Assembly: GCF_002095485.1 (NCBI RefSeq)
Contig: NZ_MLFS01000010.1
Span: forward strand, 1 to 64,000
Origin: Pantoea wallisii
GTDB taxonomy: Bacteria; Pseudomonadota; Gammaproteobacteria; Enterobacterales; Enterobacteriaceae
DNA length: 64,000 bases
Direction: 5' to 3'
Shown here: positions 14,588 through 34,110 of the stretch, piece by piece
How positions within the stretch are numbered: position 1 is the first letter of the stretch
Layout: every line of letters begins with the position of its first letter
Made by a program: the position numbers and the translations under genes
Notes under the pieces: model-generated
Database searches by the model: none
What the model was told of the DNA's origin: nothing
The model's input: the letters and a program-made list of their open reading frames with translations, nothing else

Positions 14588-16055
14588 TCCTGTCCTGGTG
14601 CGATGCCGGTGATTTCGCAGGCCAGCGCACCGGTGCGCTTCAGCGCCCAGGTATAACGCTCGTCAAACGGATAGCAGCAGGAGAGGCGTAGCGCATGTTT
14701 ATAGCGTTCGCTAAGCGAGTAAAGCGCGCCTGGCGTGACGCAAATCTGCTCCTGCAGTAACCGGTGAAACATCTCTACGGTATCCACGTTTCCCGGCAGC
14801 TCTACCCAAAACACAAAACCGCCGCGCGGCAGCGTGGCGCGGGTTCCCTGCGGGAAGTGGCGTGCAATAATGCCACGCGCCGCATCAAGATTGGCGGCAT
14901 AGCGGCGCCGCAGCGAGCGCAGATGGTGATCGTAACCGCCGTTAGCGAGAAACTCCGCCAGCGTTTCACTCAGCAGCTTTGATTCCGTCATGGAGGAGAC
15001 CGCTTTCAGCCGGGCAATCGCCGCGTGAAAACGCCCGGCGGCAGTCCAGCCAATGCGGAAATCCGGTGCGACGGTTTTCGTAAAGCTGGTGCAGTAAATG
15101 ATCCAGCCATCCTCATCAAAGGCTTTTGCCGGCGGTGAGAGGGGCCAGTCGAACTGCAACTCGTCATACAGGCCATCTTCAATGAGCGGACAGTGGTAAG
15201 TATTCACTAACTTTGCCAGCCGTTTTTTGTTTGCCAGCGGCATGACATACCCCAACGGGTTCTGTGCGCCCGGCATGGCGATCAGCGTCTGGATGCGCTG
15301 CTCCTGCAGCAGCATCTCCAGCGCGTCCAGCGACAGGCCATTTTGTGGATCGGTGGGAATCTCCAGCGCTTTCAGCCCCAGCGACGCCAGTAGCGGAAAC
15401 AGGAAGAAGTAAGTCGGGGACTCCAGCCCTACGCAGTCGCCCGGTTTGGTCACGGCGCGCAGGGCCAGCTGCAGCGCCTCCATACAGCCGTGGGTGAGGG
15501 TGATATCCTGCACGGCGAGATTCAGCCCGGTATGCAGACTGCGGCGCGCAATCTCCTCCCGTAAGCGCTCACTACCCGGCGGAAGCGCGTAACGTCCAAT
15601 GATGTCGTTATCACGCCGGATAATCGAGGCCGTAATACGGCCTAATTTTGCCGCCGGGAAAAGCTCACTGTCCTGCGGGCAGGCCAGCGAAATGTTAGTA
15701 TAATCAGGATGGTTCTGCGCGGCAAAAACCTGCTCAATCAGCGCGAGCTTCTGCGTGCTGGGATCGTTAACCTTTGCCGTTAACGGTTTTAACGGCGGCT
15801 TAATCGCGGGCAACACGCCACGCACGTAATAGCCCGATTGCGGCCGGGCTTCAATCAAACCGCGATCTTCAAGAATTTGCCAGGCATTGAGCACGGTATT
15901 GATGCTCACCTGATGCGCCTGGGCAACGCGGCGAATGGCCGGCAGCCGTTTACCCGGCTTTAGCGTGCCTGATGGATGGATTCGGCAAAGCTATCGGCCA
16001 GTTGCTGGTAGAGCGTCTGACCGGATGAAGCAGCAAGGGACACAAAAGCCTCCAT
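14554..16055 (-). CDS. MocR-type GntR/aminotransferase-fold regulator, apparent frameshift
   Basis: A GntR winged-helix N-terminus (from ATG at 16055: MEAFVSLAASSGQTLYQQL) fused to a fold-type I aminotransferase domain. The PLP-lysine motif is SFTKTVAPDFRIG. The first frame hits TAA in the HTH, and the rest resumes one base off at LKPGKRLPAIRRVAQAHQV. Restoring one C at 15968-15969 (CC to CCC) gives 500 continuous residues, usual for MocR. Divergent from a LysE exporter 126 bases away, a pairing typical of MocR regulators that sense an amino acid and control its export; that role is inferred. Confidence 0.85.
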
Positions 16056-16181
16056 GCACCATGGGTACAATTGAATGATCAGTAAACTGTATCCATTACA
16101 ATAGTCATTTTGTGTCTCTGTTTCCATTACGCTGCGCGCATTAGCATGATGAGCACTACTGGTTCATCAAGGAAACGCCCC

Positions 16182-16828: not shown

Positions 16829-18435
16829 TTACTTGCCTACACTGTGCCGTTCGCGCGCTTCGTCGTTGGCGGCCAGCGGTGTAACAACCGGCGCGTAATC
16901 GAGTTGCAACACGCGGCTGGTTTCGGCCAGCACTTTCTCGGTCAACGCCACATCGCCGTTCAGCTTACGGCCCCATGATGGGATCACGTTACGGATTTTG
17001 GTCTGCCACTCCGGTGAGCGCATCTGCTCAGGGAAAGCTTTCGCCATCAGCTCCAGCATAATTGGTGCAGCGGTTGAGGCGCCGGGAGAGGCACCCAGCA
17101 ACGCGGAGATCGAGCCGTCAGCAGACGTGACCACCTCCGTGCCCAGACGCAGCACGCCGCCCTCTTTCTCATCATTTTTGATGATCTGAACACGCTGACC
17201 AGCCGTGACTAAGCGCCAGTCCTCCTGCTTCGCCTGCGGTACATAGGCGCGCAGCGCTTCCATACGATCGGCATCGCTTTGCAGTACCTGATCAACCAGA
17301 TATTTCACCAGGTCAAAACTCTTCAGACCCACCTGCATCATAGGCAGCAGGTTGCTGGTGTTCATGGCACCAAACATATCCAGCAGCGAACCCTGCTTCA
17401 GGAATTTGGTTGAGAAGGTCGCAAAGGGACCGAACAGGAGCACCTGCTTACCATCCAGCACGCGCGTATCCACATGCGGTACCGACATGGGCGGGGCACC
17501 GACGCTGGCTTTGCCATACACCTTCGCCATATGCTGCGCGACCACGTCCGGGTTCTCGGTAACCAGGAAAGAGCCCCCCACCGGGAAGCCGGCGTAACCT
17601 TTCACTTCCGGAATGCCGGTTTTCTGCAGCAGCGGGAGCGCTGCACCGCCGGCACCAATAAATAGCTGACGCGCGATAAGCTGGCGATGCTCACCGCTGG
17701 CCAGGTTGTGCAGGCTTACCTGCCAGCGGCCATCGCGCAGGCGCTTGATATCCCGGACTTCCTGGCGCAGGCGCAGACGGAAATGCGCTTTCTTCTCCAG
17801 CGCGGCAATCAGCTGGCGCGTCACTTCACCGAAGTTAACGTCGGTGCCCATTTCGGTCCAGGTAGCCGCAACCTTCTGTTTCGCATCGCGTCCGTTCATC
17901 ACCAGTGGAATCCACTGACTGATTTGATCGCGATCTTCAGAGTAGTTCATGCCGCGGAACAGGGTGCTTTTTTGCAGCGCCTGAAAGCGTTTGCGCAGGA
18001 ACTCAACGTTTTCATCGCCCCAGACGAAGCTCATGTGCGGCGTACTGTGGATAAAGCTTTTGGGATTACGCAGATTGCCCTTCTGGACATGATACGCCCA
18101 GAACTGGCGGGAGATCTGGAACGACTCATTGATCGTCACGGCTTTGGCAATATCAATGCTGCCATCCGCCTTTTGCGGCGTATAGTTCAGCTCTGCCAGC
18201 GCGGCGTGTCCGGTGCCGGCATTGTTCCAGCCGTTAGACGATTCGACCGCCACGTCATCAAGGCGCTCTACCATCTCAATTAACCAGTCCGGCTCCAGAT
18301 CCTGCAGCCACGTGCCCAAGGTCGCGCTCATCACACCCGCGCCGATCAGCAGCACATCAACGTCTTTTCGTTCCTGAGGTTTGCGCTTTCCTTGCCAGCG
18401 GCGGCCAGCGCCAGATTTACCGCAGTATTGCTCAT
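16829..18435 (-). CDS. mqo: Malate:quinone oxidoreductase, apparent frameshift near the N-terminus
   Basis: FAD-dependent, membrane-associated dehydrogenase oxidising malate to oxaloacetate and passing electrons to quinone. The FAD dinucleotide motif is [16 protein letters not shown] and the substrate region [17 protein letters not shown] follows. The correct start is ATG at 18435 ([18 protein letters not shown]), a typical Mqo leader. One missing base in a T/A run at 18380-18382 shifts the frame before PQERKDVDV. With it restored the protein is 535 residues. The extra N-terminus read in the uncorrected frame ([11 protein letters not shown]...) is an artefact. Confidence 0.93.
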
Positions 18436-18949
18436 GAGGCGACATCTCCTCTCTCTGTTGCCCTGAAGCTCAACAGGTTCGCAGGCGAAATAGCCACGCT
18501 TCTTGCGAGCGCGTTGCGCTATCTCTCAAAGGTTAAGACTCAGGTTAAGCCATGGGGCGATAACGGTTAACTACACGTTATGCATATGCATCTGAATATA
18601 ACATTCTCGTATCGGAATTAAACGTTTGTTTATTTTTTAAATGCAGAAATGATTCAGCATAAGAATTAATCAGCCAGAACCTGGCGTCATAAGGGATTTT
18701 TATCCCGTAATCAGTCGCTTATGTTAACGCAGTTGTTATGGCGTTGTAGGAGGAGAAGAAACAGGCAGTGAGCAGGATCACAATGTAATTCATTGAAATT
18801 AAAGGCTGTGATAGAAATTGCTTTTTAATGCGGATTTTCTGTTGCGCAATGTGTCGCCCACTTGTGTAAGAAAAATGTTACGTTTTTGTGATTCTGATTT
18901 TGGGCGCGGTGAACACGCTCTGTACAGAGGAGAGTGAGCGACTGAGACC
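18436..18949. other. 514-base gap upstream of mqo
   Basis: Moderately AT-rich, no convincing ORF or RNA. It must hold the mqo promoter on the minus strand. I see no strong hairpin or repeat in it. Confidence 0.5.
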
Positions 18950-19480: not shown

Positions 19481-20052
19481 ATGACATTTATCGCAACCCT
19501 GATTCTGGCTTTAGGCATGTCGATGGACGCCTTCGCTGCCGCACTTGGCAAAGGCGCGTCGCTGCATCGCCCGGGATTCAAAGAAGCCTTGCGTACGGGT
19601 TTGATCTTCGGCGTGATCGAAATGCTGACGCCTCTGCTTGGCTGGGCAATCGGACTGGCTGCCAGTCACTACATTATGGCGTGGGATCACTGGGTCGCCT
19701 TTAGCCTGTTGAGCGTACTGGGCGGCCGTATGATTATGGAAGGGTTCCGCCAGACGGCAGATGAACCCTGCGAAGCGCCACAGCGCCATGGCTTTATGGT
19801 GCTGGCCCTCACCGCCGTGGCAACCAGCTTGATGCGCTGGCTGTCGGCGTGGGGCTGGCCTTCCTGCAGGTGAATATTGTTTTAACCGCGCTGACTATCG
19901 GTGCGGCCACAACCGTCATGGCCACCACGGGTGTGCTGGTCGGGCGCTTTATTGGTCCGGTACTGGGGAAATGGGCCGAAGTGCTGGGCGGCGTGGTACT
20001 GATTAGCATCGGCTGCACCATTTTGCTGGAGCATTTAGGGCTGTTTCGTTAA
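19481..20052 (+). CDS. mntP: Manganese efflux pump, apparent frameshift
   Basis: Six-helix Mn2+ exporter with two DUF204 repeats, each normally having an acidic helix ([14 protein letters not shown] in the first, [17 protein letters not shown] in the second). One G is missing at 19831 (TTGGAT to TTGAT), which removes the second aspartate and shifts the frame; the remainder is read at 19849-20052. With the base restored the protein is 190 residues, against 188 in E. coli. Protects from manganese toxicity in the inner membrane. Confidence 0.93.
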
Positions 20053-21556: not shown

Positions 21557-22999
21557 ATGAAAAAGAGTCATGAAGGGATCATTGATGATCTCATTAACTA
21601 CGTGGGTGGTCGGGAAAATATCGCGTCGCTAACGCACTGCATTACGCGCCTGCGTTTTGTGCTGCAGGATATGGCGCGTGCAGATGTCGAGGCGATACGC
21701 GCGCTGCCGGCCGTGAAGGGTTGCTTCAGTGCCGCCGGGCAGTTTCAGGTTATTATCGGCACCGACGTGGATATTTATTACAAAGCGTTAGTCGAAAAGC
21801 TAAATATTAGCGAATCATCACGCGAACAGATTAAATCGGCCGCGCGCAGTCAAATGAAATGGCACGAGTCGCTATTATCGCACTTCTCGGAGATATTTTT
21901 CCCGTTACTGCCTGCGTTAATTAGCGGCGGATTGATTCTCGGCTTTCGTAACGTGCTGGGCGATATTATGGTTGCCGATAATAAGACGCTGGTGCAGCTC
22001 TATCCTGGCGTAAAAGGGCTGTATGATTTCCTCTGGTTAATCGGTGAAGCCATCTTTTTCTATTTACCGGTGGGCATCTGCTGGTCGGTGGTGCGTAAAT
22101 TGGGCGGCACGCCGGTGCTGGGGATTGTGCTGGGCATTACCCTGGTTTCACCGCAGCTGATGAACGCTTACCTGCTGGGCAGCCAGCTGCCGGAAGTGTG
22201 GCATTTTGGCTGGTTCAGCATTGAGCGGGTCGGGTATCAGGCGCAGGTAATCCCCGCGCTGCTGGCGGGTCTGGCACTGGCGAAAATAGAGCTGGAGATA
22301 AAGCGCCTGGTGCCGGCCTGGCTGACGCTGGTTGTTGTGCCGGTCAGCGCGCTGCTGCTATCGGTATTTCTTGCCCACAGCATCATAGGGCCGTTTGGCC
22401 GACTGCTGGGCGACGGCATCGCGTTTGCCGTGCGCCACTTGATGACCGGCAGCTTTGCCCCGATTGGCGCGGCACTGTTTGGTTTTCTGTATGCGCCTAT
22501 GGTGATCACGGGTGTACATCAAACCACGCTGGCAGTGGATTTACAGATGATTCAGAGTATGGGCGGCACGCCGGTATGGCCGCTGATCGCGCTGTCCAAC
22601 ATTGCGCAAGGCGCAGCGGTTGTGGGGATCATTATCGCCAGTAAGAGCCGTGCTGAACGTGACCTCACGGTACCGGCCGCGATCTCCGCATGGCTGGGAG
22701 TGACCGAACCGGCGATGTACGGCGTTAACCTCAAATATCGCTATCCGATGCTGTGCGCCATGATAGGTTCCGCCATGGCCGCGCTGCTCTGTGGCCTGAA
22801 CGGTGTGATGGCGAACGGGATTGGCGTGGGCGGCTTGCCAGGGATTTTGTCAGTCCAGCCGCAGTTCTGGACCGTCTATGCCATGGCTATCCTGGTGGCG
22901 ATTCTGGTACCGATGGGGCTCACGATTGTTATCACCCGGCGCAAAGCGGTGGTTGCACAGGTACAGCAGTCAGCGCTTGCCGATCCTCCACAGTCGTAA
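21557..22999 (+). CDS. treB: PTS trehalose-specific EIIBC component
   Basis: 480 residues. N-terminal EIIB domain with phosphocysteine in THCITRLRFVL (about 26-36) and VKGCFSAAGQFQVIIGTDV; then EIIC with the hallmark FFPLLPALISGGLILGFRN and a GITLVSPQLMNAYLLG stretch, and the C-terminal VTEPAMYGVNLKYR sugar-binding region. Near-full match to E. coli TreB (473). No EIIA domain, as in the family, which borrows EIIA-Glc. It takes up trehalose as trehalose-6-phosphate. No treC (trehalose-6-P hydrolase) or treR flanks it. Confidence 0.93.
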   Translation: MKKSHEGIIDDLINYVGGRENIASLTHCITRLRFVLQDMARADVEAIRALPAVKGCFSAAGQFQVIIGTDVDIYYKALVEKLNISESSREQIKSAARSQMKWHESLLSHFSEIFFPLLPALISGGLILGFRNVLGDIMVADNKTLVQLYPGVKGLYDFLWLIGEAIFFYLPVGICWSVVRKLGGTPVLGIVLGITLVSPQLMNAYLLGSQLPEVWHFGWFSIERVGYQAQVIPALLAGLALAKIELEIKRLVPAWLTLVVVPVSALLLSVFLAHSIIGPFGRLLGDGIAFAVRHLMTGSFAPIGAALFGFLYAPMVITGVHQTTLAVDLQMIQSMGGTPVWPLIALSNIAQGAAVVGIIIASKSRAERDLTVPAAISAWLGVTEPAMYGVNLKYRYPMLCAMIGSAMAALLCGLNGVMANGIGVGGLPGILSVQPQFWTVYAMAILVAILVPMGLTIVITRRKAVVAQVQQSALADPPQS

Positions 23000-23127: not shown

Positions 23128-23913
23128 TTACCGGCACTCTCCGGCTTCGGCCACGGCGATGTAATCGGTATAGAGCTGCGGAGATCCGGAGAAGGAGGCC
23201 AGCTGCTTCCACTCCTCATACATCTGTTTGGTGTCACGATGCGCGCGGGCAAAATCTGCCGCGCTGTCGGTTGCGATATCTGGCTGAGGATAAAACACAT
23301 TCAGTGCCGCTTCGCTCTCAATCTCCATCATGACCACATATCCATCCAGCCGGTTGCCGCTATGGCCCTTTAACAGATGAAACTTCCAGCCGGGGTAGTC
23401 CACGATGCGCCCGGCATTCTCCGCAATAAACCGCTCAAACGTCTGCGGCTGGACGCCCGGCTTCAGGGCCAGATAATGGGTGCCAAGGATACGCGCAGTA
23501 CCGTTGCGGGCGTCAAAACGCGGGCCCGGCACAACGGTGCTCAGCGTATTCTCTGCCAGCAGGGTGAAATGGGTAAACAGGGTAGGACGATGTGCAAAGG
23601 TGGCCAGCTGGCGCCACCCGGCCAGTAAGGCATCGGCCTCCGGGTGCTGCTGCCAGAAACGGGTGGCTTCAGCGGTCAGCTCGCCATCATCCTGCATAAA
23701 GCGCGCGCGCTGTGCCGCGTCTTTCATCTCAAACAGCATCAGGTATTGATCAACACGCTCACCGCGCAGCCCGCGGAACAGCGTCCAGCGCCAGCCAGGA
23801 TAACAGGGTAAATTCACGCCCTTTTCCCGCACGAACGCTTCAAATTGCTGATGCGTAACACCAGCTTCGGTATCAATGGCGATATAGAAAAAACTGTAGA
23901 CGGATGATGACAT
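23128..23913 (-). CDS. Unknown protein with internal duplication, last gene of the GT/radical SAM operon
   Basis: 261 residues made of two similar halves of about 125. Each half has an N-terminal strand (FYIAID / HYLALK), an FExFxxE/FERFIAE helix, a YPGW motif (CYPGWRWTLFRG at about 37, DYPGWKFHLLKG at about 163), a D.Y..M.E strand and a terminal WRQLATF / WKQLASF helix. The pattern resembles a tandem ferredoxin-like (antibiotic-monooxygenase-type) barrel; that fold is inference. I do not recognise the family. It is 46 bases downstream of the radical SAM gene on the same strand. Confidence 0.72.
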   Translation of the reverse strand: MSSSVYSFFYIAIDTEAGVTHQQFEAFVREKGVNLPCYPGWRWTLFRGLRGERVDQYLMLFEMKDAAQRARFMQDDGELTAEATRFWQQHPEADALLAGWRQLATFAHRPTLFTHFTLLAENTLSTVVPGPRFDARNGTARILGTHYLALKPGVQPQTFERFIAENAGRIVDYPGWKFHLLKGHSGNRLDGYVVMMEIESEAALNVFYPQPDIATDSAADFARAHRDTKQMYEEWKQLASFSGSPQLYTDYIAVAEAGECR

Positions 23914-23959
23914 AGCGAACTCCAGGCACGCCGCAGCGTGCCGGTAAAAGATGAAGGGA

Positions 23960-25364
23960 TTAACCGAACTGCGTATTGATAATGGCTTCGACCAGTACGC
24001 GGCCGGCGGGCGTCAGCGTCACGCTTCGGCCATCGCTGATGAGCAAACCGCGCTGCTGCAGATCGCGCAACGCGCGAGCAATCACCGGCTGAGCAAACAG
24101 CTGACGCCAAATTTCTGCTGAAACAGCGCATCATCAAGCGGGATCAGCGTTGAGAGCGCCATCTTGCAGCCGTTAATCGCCTGCTGGTCTGGCGACATAC
24201 CGCGCACCGATGCCACAGGCAGTTGACCGCTATCCAGCGCCCGCTGATAGTCAGCGTAATCGGTCAGGTTGATCAGCTCCGCGCCCGCGCACTTTGAACT
24301 GCCGCCAAGACCTATCGCCACCTCCGGCGCCTGCTGATCCAGATCGGTAATGATCGCTTTCCACTTCTCGGGCTGCGCTGTGCGATGGTGGAAATACATG
24401 GTCGGATGTTCAAGGTAGTCGCCATCCAGCCACTGCTCCGCCAGGGCGCGCATCTGGTACTGCTGGCCAAGGCTGGGCATGGTCGCCTCTTTACGCTGCC
24501 AGGTATTTTCACCCTCTGCCGACACGCCGGTGCGGCTCTCGGCAAACGGCTTCATGTGCAGCTTGGTAAAGACCAGATGCGACAGATCCAGCGCGCGCGC
24601 CTGCTGTAAATCATCCCGCACGTCATCCACCGTTTGCCCCTGCAGGCCATACATCAGATCAACACTGACCAGTGCAAATCCCAGCTCGCGCGCATCGCGG
24701 ATAACCTGGTAGCAGGCTTCGGCACTGTGCATCCGGCCGCAGCCCTTAATCAGGCGATCGGAAAACGACTGCGCACCAAACGAAAGCTTACTGAAGCCAA
24801 GTTCACGCAGCTGCGCCAGGAATGCGCGCGTCAGCGTGCCCGGTTCGCCCTCGAAACGCAGCGTGGCATCGCGAAAATTGAAGTGGTTACGGTAAAAGGT
24901 CATCAGCCGTTGCAGCTCTTCGGGTGGCAGCAGCGACGGCGTGCCGCCGAACAGATTAAATTCCCCGACCGGCACTTCACCCAGCGCGGGTATCTGCGCC
25001 AGCCACAGTTTGGCTTCATGAATATTGCGGTCAACGATGTCGCGGAACAGCGCCGGCGCCCGCGCTGAGGCCGGATTAACGATCACCGTGGAAACTGGCA
25101 AAAGTGACATTTGTAGCGGCAGGTTGGAATATAGGCCCACAGATGGATATGCGGGGCGCGCTGCAGGCTGTGCTGCATTGCGCGAAAGAAATCTGGCAGC
25201 GGAAAGTCATCAATGTCACCAGGAAACACATGGCAGCCGAAAGGATCGCGTACCACGTACTCAAGCAGATCGGCGTTTTCCGGGCGGCTTAGCACCTCAC
25301 AGATCGCCGGTCGCGGGTAGTTGCGGTCAATATCCTGCAGGGATTGCAGCCAGGCAGCGCGCAT
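23960..25364 (-). CDS. HemN-like radical SAM enzyme, two apparent frameshifts
   Basis: The radical SAM cluster motif CRYKCHFCQFP (CxxxCxxC) is at about residues 83-93, preceded by a long leader (RAAWLQSLQDIDRN). Then come FNLFGGTPSLLPP, FEGEPGTLT, KLSFGAQSFSDRLIKGCGR and DLMYGLQGQT, all HemN/HemW/HutW-type signatures, and a C-terminal winged-helix-like tail (ARALRDLQQRGLLISDGRSVTLT). The frame breaks just after CQFP (near 25087-25093) and near 24100. Two restored bases give 468 residues. Closest described relatives are the HutW/ChuW heme enzymes, but the leader and neighbours differ. The start overlaps the upstream glycosyltransferase stop by one base. Confidence 0.85.
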
Positions 25365-26638
25365 CAGAACACCCCGCCGTTTGCAAAATAGTTATGGGCT
25401 TCACCGGATTCGCGATCCTCACAGTAGTACCAGACGAAACGGCTGAAATCCTCTTCCGCGACACGGGCGAAGCAGGCGGGCAACGGCGGAGGTGCTCCAA
25501 TGTCTTCTCCCACTGCACGACGCAGCGCGGCAAACAGCGCATGATGAAACTCAAAGTAGAGGCGGAAAGCCGGGGTTTTGTAGCTGTGAATCGGCAGAAA
25601 ATCGGTGACGCTCATCTCCTGCATTATGCAGTGAATGCGTGCATACATCTGCTCAGCCACCGCAGGCGTAAAGAAGTCGATTACGGCGGTATTGTCCCGC
25701 AGCAGCGAGGGATTAAGCAGCACTGGCAGCACCAGATTCTTCGGCACATAATCTTTAATCGAGTAGTCCCAGGCTTGCTGCGCCTGCTCCGGGGTAACGT
25801 CGGTAAACGGCGTCAGCGCGGCCAGCGCCGGGCGGACATCTTTCATGATGATGGTGCCGTTGTGCCCGTAAGCCACGCCTTCAATGACCTCATGCAGCAG
25901 GTTATCCACGCGACGACTATTAATCTGCACCCGCGAATGCGGCGCGTACACCGGTTTGCCACCGGCAGCAATCACCTTGATGCCAAAGTCCCAGTCATCG
26001 GACAGATGTTCAACAAACTCGCCGTTCTTCAGCTGGCAGAAGATCTCAATGCCGCCCACTTTGTCATACAGCTGCTTCTCCACGGCAAAACCTTTGCCAT
26101 CGGGAAAGCCGCCAAACAGTGAAAACGAAGCGTGCCGGCAGCGCAGGGTCTTTTCGATTTCGCTATACAGACGCGGACGCTCATGGAAATCTGCGGTTTC
26201 GTAGTAGTAGTTGCAGGTACCGAGATCGCCCTGCTGTGCGATCATGGTGCTGACCAGTTCGTCAATCCACAGATCATCGACAGTGCAATCGGCATCGGCA
26301 GAGAGGATGTAGTGTTTGCGCGGATAGCCGCTGGCTTCATCGCGCGCCCCGGCGCGCTGCGAGGCGAAATCCATCCCTTTTTTGCGCGCCGATGAGACCC
26401 CCTGTACAGCTTCATGCAGCAGATGCACGCGCAGCTGAGGATGCTGTGCGGCAAATGCGGTGATTAACGCCACCGAGTTATCAGTGGAGTTGTTATCCAC
26501 CATAATGACTTCAAGATTATCAAAACTGAACAATCCGCCGGGTGAACGCTGCTGTAATATTGAGGCCATTACCGCATTAATTCGCGCGGCTTCGTTATAA
26601 ACGGGCAGCACAACTGAAATAAAACATGGGTTATCCAT
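25364..26638 (-). CDS. Family 2-like glycosyltransferase
   Basis: 424 residues from ATG at 26638 with AAGGAG seven bases upstream (a GTG two codons earlier is less likely). GT-A fold: VVLPVYNEAARINAVMASI at the N-terminus, VIMVDNNSTDNS (about 46-57) and the metal motif SADADCTVDDLW (about 113). The acceptor half with DDWDFGIKV (about 215) is followed by a 150-residue C-terminal extension without membrane helices. Transfers sugar from a nucleotide donor to an unknown acceptor. Coupled to the radical SAM gene downstream and 13 bases from the gene upstream. Confidence 0.85.
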   Translation of the reverse strand: MDNPCFISVVLPVYNEAARINAVMASILQQRSPGGLFSFDNLEVIMVDNNSTDNSVALITAFAAQHPQLRVHLLHEAVQGVSSARKKGMDFASQRAGARDEASGYPRKHYILSADADCTVDDLWIDELVSTMIAQQGDLGTCNYYYETADFHERPRLYSEIEKTLRCRHASFSLFGGFPDGKGFAVEKQLYDKVGGIEIFCQLKNGEFVEHLSDDWDFGIKVIAAGGKPVYAPHSRVQINSRRVDNLLHEVIEGVAYGHNGTIIMKDVRPALAALTPFTDVTPEQAQQAWDYSIKDYVPKNLVLPVLLNPSLLRDNTAVIDFFTPAVAEQMYARIHCIMQEMSVTDFLPIHSYKTPAFRLYFEFHHALFAALRRAVGEDIGAPPPLPACFARVAEEDFSRFVWYYCEDRESGEAHNYFANGGVF

Positions 26639-26651
26639 CGTCACTCCTTAA

Positions 26652-28025
26652 CTACCTGTGAAATATCGTGTGGAAAATATGATCTGAAAGCAAAGATTTA
26701 CCTTTATGATAATTGCGCAGGGCCATGGCTAAACGCCGCTCATCATCATGTAATAAGCGATCAACGCGCTGTATAAATTCGCTGTCTGGTAATCCATCCT
26801 GGCCGGCGGAAATATCCATCAGCTCGCCCTCAAATCCATGCTGGCCATAAACTTCGTGGTAATATTCATAACGCGTGGCGATATAGCTGCGCTGGTGGCT
26901 AATGGCCTCGCCAATCGGGTTGCCATAACTGTCGTAATCCCACGCGGTTAAAAAAGAGAGCAGATCGCAGGCGTGATAGAGATCCTGAATGGTAGTCGCA
27001 TGCGGATTATGCTCCATAAAATCATGGTTCAGCGCGCCGAAAAAGATGACATAAGGTTCCAGTTGCAGAGCGTTAATCTGCTTTTTCAGCGTGGCAAAAT
27101 GGCGCTCATCTTCCAGCGGATCGCCGGCTACCATTAAATAGACGCGATGGGGTAAATGCTGTTCAATTAACCTTCTGTTTATGGCCTGTAATAGATATAT
27201 ATCCCGATCGAGGCGCTTGGCCGGAATAATACGCGTAGTGCGCGCAATCACTTTATCCTGCGGCTGCAGGCCAAACAGCTGGCGCAGATCTTTACGCGGA
27301 TGCTGTGGATCGAACGGATAGGTGTTGCGCATCACCTCAATATTCACCTGATGATCGCACCAGGCTGCCAGCTGCGAAGCCAGCGCCTGATTGAGCGCCA
27401 CATAGGTGATGTGCGGCGAAGGCTGTGGTTTTACGGCATGGAGCCAGGGCGCCTCACCGTAGCGTGATGAGGTCGATTCACTGTTCCACATCAAATCGTG
27501 ATCGCGCCATAATACATAGCGCTCAAGCTGTCTCTCTTCGCCATAGTGGGCAATGGCCAGATAGAGCGCCCGCGTAAAAATAATATTGTCCGGTAGCGTG
27601 CCGTTTTCGATGATTAAATAGTGAATATCCAGCGCCCGCCACTTCTCACACAGCTTTTGCGCGACATCAGCCGCCATCTTGTGACTGATATTCAGCAGGT
27701 GCTGTTCTGCATCGTGCGTGACTTTTTCACTGCGATTAATGAATACGTCGTGAATATATTGCAGAAAAGAGGGTGTATACCCTTCAACCTGACGAATAGC
27801 ATCGTGACGCACTAATGTGAAGTGATGCTGCAGGGCTGCTATTTCATGATCTGAATAAGGGCGGGCGAAATTGCCTTTATCCAGTTTAATGTCATAGCCA
27901 ATATCCAGATAGCAAAGCGTATTTTCATCGCGTAAGCGTACGGCAATCTTAGCCGCTTCTACGGTAATTCCGGAGAGGGCAACAGCATCAAAAGAGATAA
28001 AAAGGGCCTTGCGTTGTAATTCCAT
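26652..28025 (-). CDS. GT-B fold glycosyltransferase (GT4-like), first gene of operon
   Basis: 457 residues. N-terminal half opens with KALFISFDAVALSGITVEAAKIA; the C-terminal half has the donor-binding segments ARTTRIIPAKRLDRDIYLL (about 265-283, R and K of GT4 enzymes), YVIFFGALNHDFM and the acidic SYGNPIGEAISHQRSY (E-rich donor loop). No membrane segment, so cytosolic. Codons and base composition look more AT-rich than in neighbouring blocks, hinting at transfer. With the next three genes it forms a four-gene minus-strand operon of unknown product. Confidence 0.8.
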   Translation of the reverse strand: MELQRKALFISFDAVALSGITVEAAKIAVRLRDENTLCYLDIGYDIKLDKGNFARPYSDHEIAALQHHFTLVRHDAIRQVEGYTPSFLQYIHDVFINRSEKVTHDAEQHLLNISHKMAADVAQKLCEKWRALDIHYLIIENGTLPDNIIFTRALYLAIAHYGEERQLERYVLWRDHDLMWNSESTSSRYGEAPWLHAVKPQPSPHITYVALNQALASQLAAWCDHQVNIEVMRNTYPFDPQHPRKDLRQLFGLQPQDKVIARTTRIIPAKRLDRDIYLLQAINRRLIEQHLPHRVYLMVAGDPLEDERHFATLKKQINALQLEPYVIFFGALNHDFMEHNPHATTIQDLYHACDLLSFLTAWDYDSYGNPIGEAISHQRSYIATRYEYYHEVYGQHGFEGELMDISAGQDGLPDSEFIQRVDRLLHDDERRLAMALRNYHKGKSLLSDHIFHTIFHR

Positions 28026-28267
28026 TTTTGGTCACCACGCTCATACCTGAACATTAACGGTGACTGAACGTTAAGTGAATTTATTAGGTTAAACTATGAT
28101 CTCATCCACAAAACGTTATTGCTGCTGATCTATTAAGTCTTACTAATGCATTTATGGATAAATTAATCAGGCCGAATATTTTTATTATTTAATTGGCTTT
28201 AAGCCTTGTCTCAAAAAAATAATTATTAAATGCGCTGCTATATATTTCGCTGTGGATAAGTGCGCAA
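28026..28267. promoter_or_regulatory. AT-rich promoter region of the GT/radical SAM operon
   Basis: About 240 bases, markedly AT-rich, between the operon start and the lgoT terminator. It must carry the operon promoter on the minus strand. I see no confident operator. Confidence 0.4.
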
Positions 28268-28292
28268 TAAAAAAAGCCTCCCGCAGGAGGCT
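28268..28292 (-). terminator. Terminator of lgoT
   Basis: AGCCTCC (28275-28281) CGCA GGAGGCT (28286-28292); on the minus strand it is followed by TTTTTTATTG. Confidence 0.9.
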
Positions 28293-28316
28293 CTCACACT
28301 GGCGATGGATCAGAAC

Positions 28317-32711: not shown

Positions 32712-33509
32712 ATGCCGCAAAATCCCAAATTCCTTAACCTGGTGCTGTTGAGCGGTGAACCTGAGCACAAGCTGCGTGCCGCGCGCGCGGCGGGTTTCGG
32801 GCAGGTTGAGATATGGCGCGAAGACATTGATGCCAGCACGCCGCAGCTGGCGAACGCGTTGAACCTTGGCTTTACTAATGTGCAGGTACTGCGGGATTTC
32901 ACCGGCGCACCGGGGGATGAACGGCTGCAAAAACGTGCCGAACTGCGCGAGTTTATCCGGCTGGCACAGACAATTGGCTGCGACACTATTCAGGCTCCTG
33001 CTACCACCCGTGAAGATTGCATTCCTGAACGTATCGATGAAGATTTGCGCTGGCTGGCGTCAGAAGCAGCACGCTACAACATGCGCATCATGTACGAGCC
33101 CATGGCGTGGTGCAGCGTTGATAACACCCTGCCGCTGGCGTGGCAGCGCCTGCAACGGCTGGATCAGCCCAACATCGGGCTGGTGGTCGATCTGTTCCAC
33201 ATCTGTGCATTAGGCGGCGACGCTTCGCAGCTCGACGGCATCCCCGCCGATCGCATCTACGAAGTACAGCTGTGTGACATGGCCGACGTGCCGCCGCAGG
33301 GCAAAGAGGCGCTAAGCGAGTACGCGCGCCACCAGCGGCTGCTGCCGGGTGACGGCATTATCGATGTCGCGCGCTTTGTCGATAAGCTGAAGAGCGCGGG
33401 CTATTGTGGGCCGGTCGGCATTGAAGTCTTCAATGACGATCTTAAAGCGCAACCCGCTGACGTCGCCGCACAGCGAGCCTGGCAGGCGCTGAACCGCTAC
33501 TGGCCCTAA
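32712..33509 (+). CDS. Sugar phosphate isomerase/epimerase-type TIM-barrel protein
   Basis: 265 residues of the AP-endonuclease-2/xylose-isomerase-like superfamily: YEPMAWCSV (metal E at about 133), GLVVDLFHICALGG (D and H at about 159), YEVQLCDM (about 184) and PVGIEVFND (E near the end). AAGGAG eight bases before ATG. Related to hydroxypyruvate isomerase and IolE/IolI; no partner genes fix the substrate. Stop overlaps the convergent esterase stop by a few bases. Confidence 0.82.
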   Translation: MPQNPKFLNLVLLSGEPEHKLRAARAAGFGQVEIWREDIDASTPQLANALNLGFTNVQVLRDFTGAPGDERLQKRAELREFIRLAQTIGCDTIQAPATTREDCIPERIDEDLRWLASEAARYNMRIMYEPMAWCSVDNTLPLAWQRLQRLDQPNIGLVVDLFHICALGGDASQLDGIPADRIYEVQLCDMADVPPQGKEALSEYARHQRLLPGDGIIDVARFVDKLKSAGYCGPVGIEVFNDDLKAQPADVAAQRAWQALNRYWP

Positions 33510-34110
33510 TCCTGCAAACACTGCGCGATATACGCCGCCGCCTGCATCGCGCCCTGCGCCGAGATGGTGTGGCCGGTGGCGGCTTCGTAATGCGCCTCAA
33601 CATGCACGCCCGCGGCCTGCAAACGCTGCGCGGCAGATTCGCTCTCGCTAAACGGAATCACATCATCGGCTTTGCCGTGCACAATCAGGCTGAAGCGAAC
33701 GGCTGCGGCGCCGGTATCCCGTCAAAGGAGAGGCGACCGGAGAAGGCTACTACGCCCGCCAGCGGATAGCGCCCGGAGGCCAGCGCGTCCAGCGCCATGA
33801 TTGAGCCCTGGGAAAAACCAACCAGAATCACCTTATCCCATGCATCCGCCATACCGTGCTGTGCCATCAGCTGTTGTAGCGTCTGATCGAACGCCGCCCG
33901 CGCTGCCCGCACGCGTGCCGGACGATTTTCCGGCGTGATGCCGGTCAGACTAAACCACTGATACCCCATCGCATGTTCAAACGGAAAGGGCGCATCAGGC
34001 GCAGCAAAAGCCACATCCGGCAGCAGCGAGGCCCAGTGCTGTCCCAGCCCCGCCAAATCCGCGCCATTGCTGCCCACGCCATGTAAAAAGATCGCTAATG
34101 CTTTTGCCAC
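33506..34110 (-). CDS. Alpha/beta-hydrolase carboxylesterase (YpfH-like), apparent frameshift
   Basis: Phospholipase/carboxylesterase family: IFLHGVGSNGADL at the N-terminus (oxyanion hole), nucleophile serine in LVGFSQGSIMAL (about 97), then after a frame break HGKADDVIPFSES (catalytic D) and ATGHTISAQGAMQ (catalytic H). The break is a missing G at 33688-33689 (GG, expected GGG; C on the coding strand). With it restored the protein is 201 residues. GTG start at 34110 with AAGGAG upstream. Shorter than E. coli YpfH (232) and not certainly its orthologue. Confidence 0.82.

Follow-up and report, generated by a model that had tools for sequence, protein, structure and literature searches.

What does a compact run of four minus-strand genes in Pantoea wallisii make, when it encodes two glycosyltransferases (GT-B and GT-A), a radical SAM (S-adenosylmethionine) enzyme resembling HemN and HutW, and an internally duplicated protein of 261 residues? 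The genes occupy positions 23,128 to 28,025 of a stretch of 64,000 nucleotides (contig NZ_MLFS01000010.1 of assembly GCF_002095485.1, positions 1 to 64,000), which we call the window. We find that the two glycosyltransferase genes and the radical SAM gene, hereafter the trio, stay together across two phyla and have come into repeated contact with trehalose genes in separate lineages. Our preferred reading, which rests on genomic context and to which we give slightly less than even credence, is that the trio is a putative horizontally moving unit for a small exported glycoside derived from, or mimicking, trehalose. The features of the window to which we refer are as follows.

26652..28025, minus strand: GT-B glycosyltransferase, 457 residues, intact, first gene of the operon (Pfam Glycos_transf_1, family alignment)
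25364..26644, minus strand: GT-A (GT2) glycosyltransferase, 426 residues from a GTG start at 26644, intact (Pfam Glycos_transf_2)
23960..25364, minus strand: HemN/HutW-like radical SAM gene with two frameshifts (one piece at 25083-25364, a second at 24082-25140, then a tail to 23960)
23128..23913, minus strand: internally duplicated protein of 261 residues (our label NIP), without a credible Pfam family
21557..22999, plus strand: treB, trehalose-specific phosphotransferase system component IIBC, convergent neighbour of the operon (PRK11007, TIGR01992)
28026..28316, no strand assigned: AT-rich leader of 291 bases (64% AT) upstream of the operon, with consensus matches only

Genome contigs were scanned with an alignment of the radical SAM enzyme, which confirmed 117 relatives, and the best 80 of these 117 loci were analysed. 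At 79 of the 80 the GT-B, GT2 and radical SAM genes are contiguous and keep one order; the exception, in Pseudoduganella (L012), has its GT-B gene at the end of the same cluster. At 58 loci the two glycosyltransferases share a single reading frame. This contiguity bears out the proposal of a first-pass annotation of this DNA that the genes act together, and its four-gene unit holds in part: the trio is nearly universal, whereas the 261-residue family follows the radical SAM gene as a fourth member in 32 of the 80 loci (Gammaproteobacteria and Pseudoduganella). Gammaproteobacteria carry one or two copies of this gene, often with a major facilitator superfamily (MFS) transporter gene, and the arrangement NIP-MFS-NIP is present at 25 of the 80 loci; in 7 of the 31 actinobacterial loci an MFS gene lies upstream on the opposite strand. 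The carriers comprise Enterobacterales, Pseudomonas, Arsenophonus, Xenorhabdus, Ensifer, Sinorhizobium, Rhizobium, Paraburkholderia, Cupriavidus, Frankia, Streptomyces, Amycolatopsis and others. Several of these genera are insect-associated.

At 11 of the 80 genome loci, tblastn places trehalose genes (treB/treC, thuA/thuB or otsB/otsA) no more than about 10 kb from the trio, at least 12 of the 80 having short flanks; by annotation, such genes are also present in four of nine plasmid stretches (L084-L087, L105-L109). The window itself carries a gene that scores as TreB (840 bits against PRK11007, cut-off 409; 667 bits against TIGR01992, cut-off 592), and Pantoea dispersa has treB and treC at the corresponding place, its treC open reading frame being without a match in the P. 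wallisii window. On two Duffyella plasmids treR-treB-treC stands directly upstream of the GT-B gene, and in Pseudomonas argentinensis and three relatives treB-treC lies 3-4 kb upstream of the trio, with a LamB porin gene in L040 (the curated family scan of this group was run on L029 alone). Arsenophonus has treB in two frames, the scanned piece exceeding one of the two cut-offs. Two Pseudochrobactrum loci have genes for a sugar ABC transporter, a ThuA-domain protein and a Gfo/Idh/MocA oxidoreductase that end 15 bases before the GT-B gene, an order which we take to be a thu operon. Upstream of the trio, and on its strand, four Lonsdalea loci carry otsB and otsA together with genes for a GMC oxidoreductase, a class III aminotransferase and a sulfotransferase (families scanned in L005 and L006); the otsA of L005 is split and is a second OtsA copy of that genome. 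Kosakonia sacchari has a second OtsA on another contig, and P. sabiae has treS near the trio, behind an insertion sequence (IS) element. The genome of the window has a second locus (G000:C5, L099, 7242-13511), in which treR is accompanied, on the other strand, by treB-treC, an MFS gene that is split, and a paralogue of the 261-residue gene. As a separate observation, the trio of Xenorhabdus stockiae (L050, 11558-19059) stands beside malM-lamB-malK and malEF, with maltose instead of trehalose genes.

When the 12 short loci are set aside, the presence of a trehalose neighbour requires at least four changes on the radical SAM tree. TreC above its cut-off is single-copy in 23 of 34 genomes, and within the fetched stretches 0.09 occurrences were expected by chance against three observed, all in one clade. 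If 14 lineages are treated as independent, with three matches among them (Pantoea, Duffyella and P. argentinensis), the chance is about 2 × 10-5, a rough figure, because the link was noticed post hoc, the number 14 is an estimate, and P. dispersa and Duffyella are outside the 34 genomes. Contact between the trio and trehalose genes has been made repeatedly across separate lineages. A soluble glycoside, the product proposed by the first-pass annotation, remains compatible with these data, although that proposal overlooked the link to trehalose genes, including the adjoining treB.

The family assignments agree with those made in the first pass, which had named one GT-B and one GT-A enzyme. The GT-B protein matches Glycos_transf_1 (PF00534) with E = 8.7 × 10-6 and 25.8 bits, slightly below the cut-off of 26.4; PF00534 is precomputed on many of the GT-B relatives listed, and the protein appears to represent a divergent family. 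The GT2 protein scores 77 bits against Glycos_transf_2 (PF00535, cut-off 23.3) and has the DxD motif expected of GT2 members, as D-A-D in at least 23 of the 24 loci chosen for alignment. In one GT-B relative from a database contig (P0255, 38% identity) the fusion partner is a radical SAM domain that does not resemble HemN, so the GT-B family may pair with more than one type of radical SAM enzyme. For the radical SAM enzyme we used the intact protein of 468 residues from P. dispersa (L004, 100% identical to P0081); PF04055 exceeds its cut-off, with 72.5 bits on P0081 and 53.2 bits on the piece in the window, and the CxxxCxxC cysteines C82, C86 and C89 are invariant across 23 sequences, so the protein belongs to the radical SAM superfamily. 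Its best family matches are HutW, HemW, STM4012 and HemN, in agreement with the HemN/HutW-like core noted earlier, and P0081 falls below every curated NCBIfam cut-off (HutW 119 of 400 bits, HemN 100 of 325, HemW 103 of 205). We regard the enzyme as forming its own subfamily around a HemN-like core. The internal repeat reported for the 261-residue protein is real, its halves aligning by profile with probability 99.8, E = 6 × 10-30 and 30% identity; no credible Pfam family was found for it, and the label NIPSNAP that UniRef attaches to some relatives received no support, as none of 25 members matched Pfam NIPSNAP at E 0.1.

If the preferred reading holds, the GT-B and GT2 enzymes would use nucleotide sugars as donors to assemble a short oligosaccharide, either on trehalose or trehalose-6-phosphate as the acceptor or with a trehalose-like linkage in the product. 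The radical SAM enzyme might then alter a carbon centre by methylation or carbon-carbon bond formation, a step suggested by the naming of two relatives, NocN and HutW, as methyltransferases. The MFS transporter would export the product and the 261-residue protein would assist or protect, while the treBC and thu genes may provide trehalose, take it away, or enable the producer to use what a trehalase inhibitor spares. That trehalose serves as the scaffold is suggested by the Lonsdalea set, in which trehalose synthesis genes are joined by families for oxidation, amination and sulfation, and the C5 locus speaks for the trehalose reading in having treB-treC followed by an MFS gene and a second 261-residue gene. 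In ecological terms the product could act on how a neighbouring plant, insect or microbe metabolises trehalose, with the producer itself relying on TreC or ThuAB, for which trehalase is not needed.

Several results weigh against this reading. In the fetched DNA no trehalose gene is present at 69 of the 80 genome loci, among them 11 of the 15 Pseudomonas loci, and no counted trehalose gene is present at any of the 31 actinobacterial loci (two weak cases there, a glucosidase of 34% identity in L079 and a LacI-type regulator of 26% identity in L078, were not counted). The link was seen after looking, without prior prediction, and the contacts themselves are often loose, with treB-treC 3-4 kb away in Pseudomonas and on the other strand in Pantoea, and with the IS element intervening in P. 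sabiae. A palindrome scan of 12 stretches gave no common TreR-like operator. We found no relative with a known product and no close solved structure for the GT-B profile, the best match being marginal at 18.7 bits. Trehalose levels were unchanged in nifA-mutant nodules of Paraburkholderia phymatum according to PMC8305402.

The 69 loci without trehalose genes favour the main rival, which is a small-molecule glycoside with a core other than trehalose (for example an amino acid or lipid acceptor), the trehalose neighbours then reflecting common regulation or chance insertion into sugar operons. The position of the unit next to the maltose operon in Xenorhabdus would fit this as well, as it implies that sugar operons generally may be landing sites. 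Against it, treBC, thu and otsBA recur in separate lineages (four or more changes on the tree), and the genome of the window has an MFS gene and a second 261-residue gene behind treBC; we consider this rival unlikely, though it is the likeliest account of the product after the trehalose reading. The glycosyltransferases might alternatively decorate a surface or capsular glycan by adding sugars to an envelope polymer or lipid, as the GT2 enzyme resembles polysaccharide glycosyltransferases with a low score. However, no conserved polymer export genes stand beside the trio: among the gene clusters around it, with the trio, the 261-residue family, MFS and overlapping frames set aside, other families of at least 90 residues occur in at most nine loci, the rhizobial loci have only the trio in common, and the actinobacterial loci share the trio, plus MFS in 7 of 31, all of which makes glycan decoration quite improbable.

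A peptide product has even less in its favour. Clusters for ribosomally synthesised and post-translationally modified peptides (RiPPs) may hold both radical SAM enzymes and glycosyltransferases, and a glycosylated, radical-SAM-modified peptide with a small unlisted precursor gene could account for the set. The comparison covered 2144 small frames lying up to about 1.2 kb from the 80 loci. In the ten largest conserved groups the members listed (up to 12 per group) are all downstream of the radical SAM gene, at the place of the 261-residue gene, with none upstream of the GT-B gene, and we regard this explanation as very improbable. Heme use or repair by the HemN/HutW-like enzyme with accessory genes is suggested by the best family matches, but the scores of P0081 lie far under all the curated cut-offs, and at 79 of the 80 loci the radical SAM gene has GT-B and GT2 genes next to it. 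A heme pathway is thus disfavoured, and we give it the smallest likelihood of all, close to negligible. The first pass had likewise seen no adjoining heme-uptake genes, and there are none for heme among the eight neighbours scanned, which are part of those in the window (TreB, FAA hydrolase, MFS transporter, GntR regulator, zinc dehydrogenase, TIM-barrel, FemAB-like protein, malate:quinone oxidoreductase).

The preferred trehalose reading includes mobility, and the distribution of the trio is consistent with spread by horizontal transfer without being proof of it. A quick tree of 85 rows requires 5 changes for the label Gammaproteobacteria, 3 for Alphaproteobacteria and 3 for Betaproteobacteria (2, 3 and 2 of them, respectively, forced by starred branches); the long branches L049 and L050 are uncertain on this tree. 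Of 72,556 plasmid records, ten match the radical SAM enzyme at E 10-60 or lower, and in nine the match covers 80% or more of the protein. In plasmid p.QF3 of Pseudochrobactrum sp. XF203 (L105, 10871-11650), a GT-B gene is annotated and the radical SAM enzyme is matched over 44%, and the unit seems degraded. The unit is rare among closer relatives: of 295 genomes of the order, that of the window alone gave a match to the radical SAM piece, and within the genus 2 of 61 genomes matched P0081. The 261-residue family occurs in exactly the same genomes, and no near match was found in E. coli. Streptomyces abyssalis (L094/L098) has a member of the 261-residue family (P0040, 63% identical to that of the window) about 60 kb from a trio of actinobacterial type, the contigs of the two being equal in length, perhaps through a separate transfer, and the trehalose seeds had no tblastn match in the 16 kb surrounding it. 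Two other readings were rejected: phage cargo, as seven phage records matched at only 25-27% identity, and a defence system, as PADLOC gave no match except a weak one to the radical SAM enzyme (E = 1.8 × 10-4).

In the window the radical SAM gene is spread over three frames, with two frameshifts and an internal TGA, so the intact protein of 468 residues claimed in the first pass does not exist in this assembly; the CxxxCxxC cysteines are encoded in the piece 25083-25364, and besides the P. dispersa protein an intact copy is present in genome G331. The frameshifts, the P. dispersa treC frame without a match and the MFS gene of C5 in two frames would suit a decaying operon without function in this strain. 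However, splitting also affects other genes in this stretch. Seventeen mechanically called P. dispersa open reading frames were matched in the window (one as an antisense frame), and five of the 17, the radical SAM gene included, are split between frames; of the four others (33509-34110, 19481-20049, 16832-18486 and 15760-16070) the last two are weak or at the locus edge. Moreover, 167 of the 198 base changes between the radical SAM pieces and P. dispersa are at third codon positions, and 29 of the 181 changed codons are nonsynonymous, a pattern that indicates purifying selection on the pieces. Because neighbouring genes and the C5 MFS gene are likewise split, the changes are mostly at third positions and the genome is a draft of 149 contigs, indel errors in the assembly are a likely cause of the frameshifts, with recent loss as the alternative, and we think it improbable that the operon is decaying.

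The spacing of the operon in the window matches that described earlier, the order GT-B, GT2, radical SAM, 261-residue gene being separated by 13 bases, a 1-base overlap and 46 bases; the 13-base gap is that given by an alternative ATG start of the GT2 gene at 26638. The GT-B gene is AT-richer than its surroundings, as had been observed (GC 48.8%, against 54.8% for GT2, 59.4% for the radical SAM region, 57.5% for the 261-residue gene and 56.5% for the window). Upstream of it, at 28272-28295, is a putative terminator-like hairpin (consensus match only).

Expression of the trio has been recorded in root nodules. In P. phymatum STM815 both glycosyltransferases are encoded by one coding sequence, Bphy_7707 (BPHY_RS38025), and the radical SAM enzyme by Bphy_7706 (BPHY_RS38020). 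PMC8305402 gives lower expression of both genes in nifA-mutant bacteroids (log2 -4.98 and -4.07, respectively), and PMC5979394 gives log2 -3.6 for Bphy_7707 in rpoN-mutant nodules; within the open-access literature these two papers were the only ones found for the two genes. The passages found in two Frankia nodule studies (PMC8951365 and PMC10252897) do not name such a radical SAM protein. A pattern scan of about 700 bases upstream of the P. phymatum locus gave no sigma-54/NifA site, and nod box, NifA and sigma-54 patterns have scattered matches upstream of some of 24 loci, with none in P. phymatum. Because such patterns are missing there, the dependence on NifA may be indirect.

We rate the trio as a small gene cluster for biosynthesis in which the pairing of enzymes is unusual, its chemistry being deduced. 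If the trehalose reading is true, it would give a chemical class and a small enzyme set to an orphan pathway shared by symbionts of legumes, Frankia, bacteria associated with insects and bacteria of plants, and a HemN-like radical SAM enzyme working with two glycosyltransferases that share one frame would be an uncommon route to a modified oligosaccharide. The product may also be an overlooked bacteroid metabolite, given the nodule transcriptomes in which expression is lower without NifA. The fullest version, in which a three-enzyme mobile pathway of two phyla makes a trehalose analogue tailored by the radical SAM enzyme that disrupts the trehalose metabolism of partners, depends on NifA in nodules and is made by producers that avoid trehalase, is speculative and in our judgement unlikely.

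How does the trio compare with known systems? HutW/ChuW, the radical SAM methyltransferase of anaerobic heme degradation (TIGR04107), is its best NCBIfam match, and residues 64-457 of P0081 can be aligned with it, the HemN-like core being common to both; the trio enzyme differs in its much lower score, in about 30 extra residues ahead of the core and in the adjoining GT-B and GT2 genes. NocN, another radical SAM methyltransferase, is part of a thiopeptide pathway, whereas a peptide precursor was not seen near the trio. The NocN structure (PDB 9p2u) matches at 102 bits over profile positions 68-269, about equal to HemN (1olt, 106 bits), and through this sequence likeness to NocN the enzyme may be related to the class C radical SAM methyltransferases, which use two SAM molecules for methyl transfer. 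Mannosylglucosylglycerate synthase (NF041101) aligns with the GT-B protein over about 300 residues at 30 bits against a cut-off of 640, as a distant relative. A search of the open-access literature, with subscription papers mostly outside it, found no described pathway with this gene set and no trehalose-derived product made by it. The operons treR-treB-treC and thu are represented beside the trio or its paralogue by TreB, TreC and TreR above curated cut-offs and by a ThuA-domain protein above the Pfam cut-off; to our knowledge the known trehalose operons are without two glycosyltransferases and a radical SAM enzyme, and we know of no trehalose-derived natural product from a GT-B/GT2/radical SAM set. 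Natural products derived from trehalose include trehazolin, the trehalosamines and the lentztrehaloses, and if our reading is true the product of the trio would belong to this same class.

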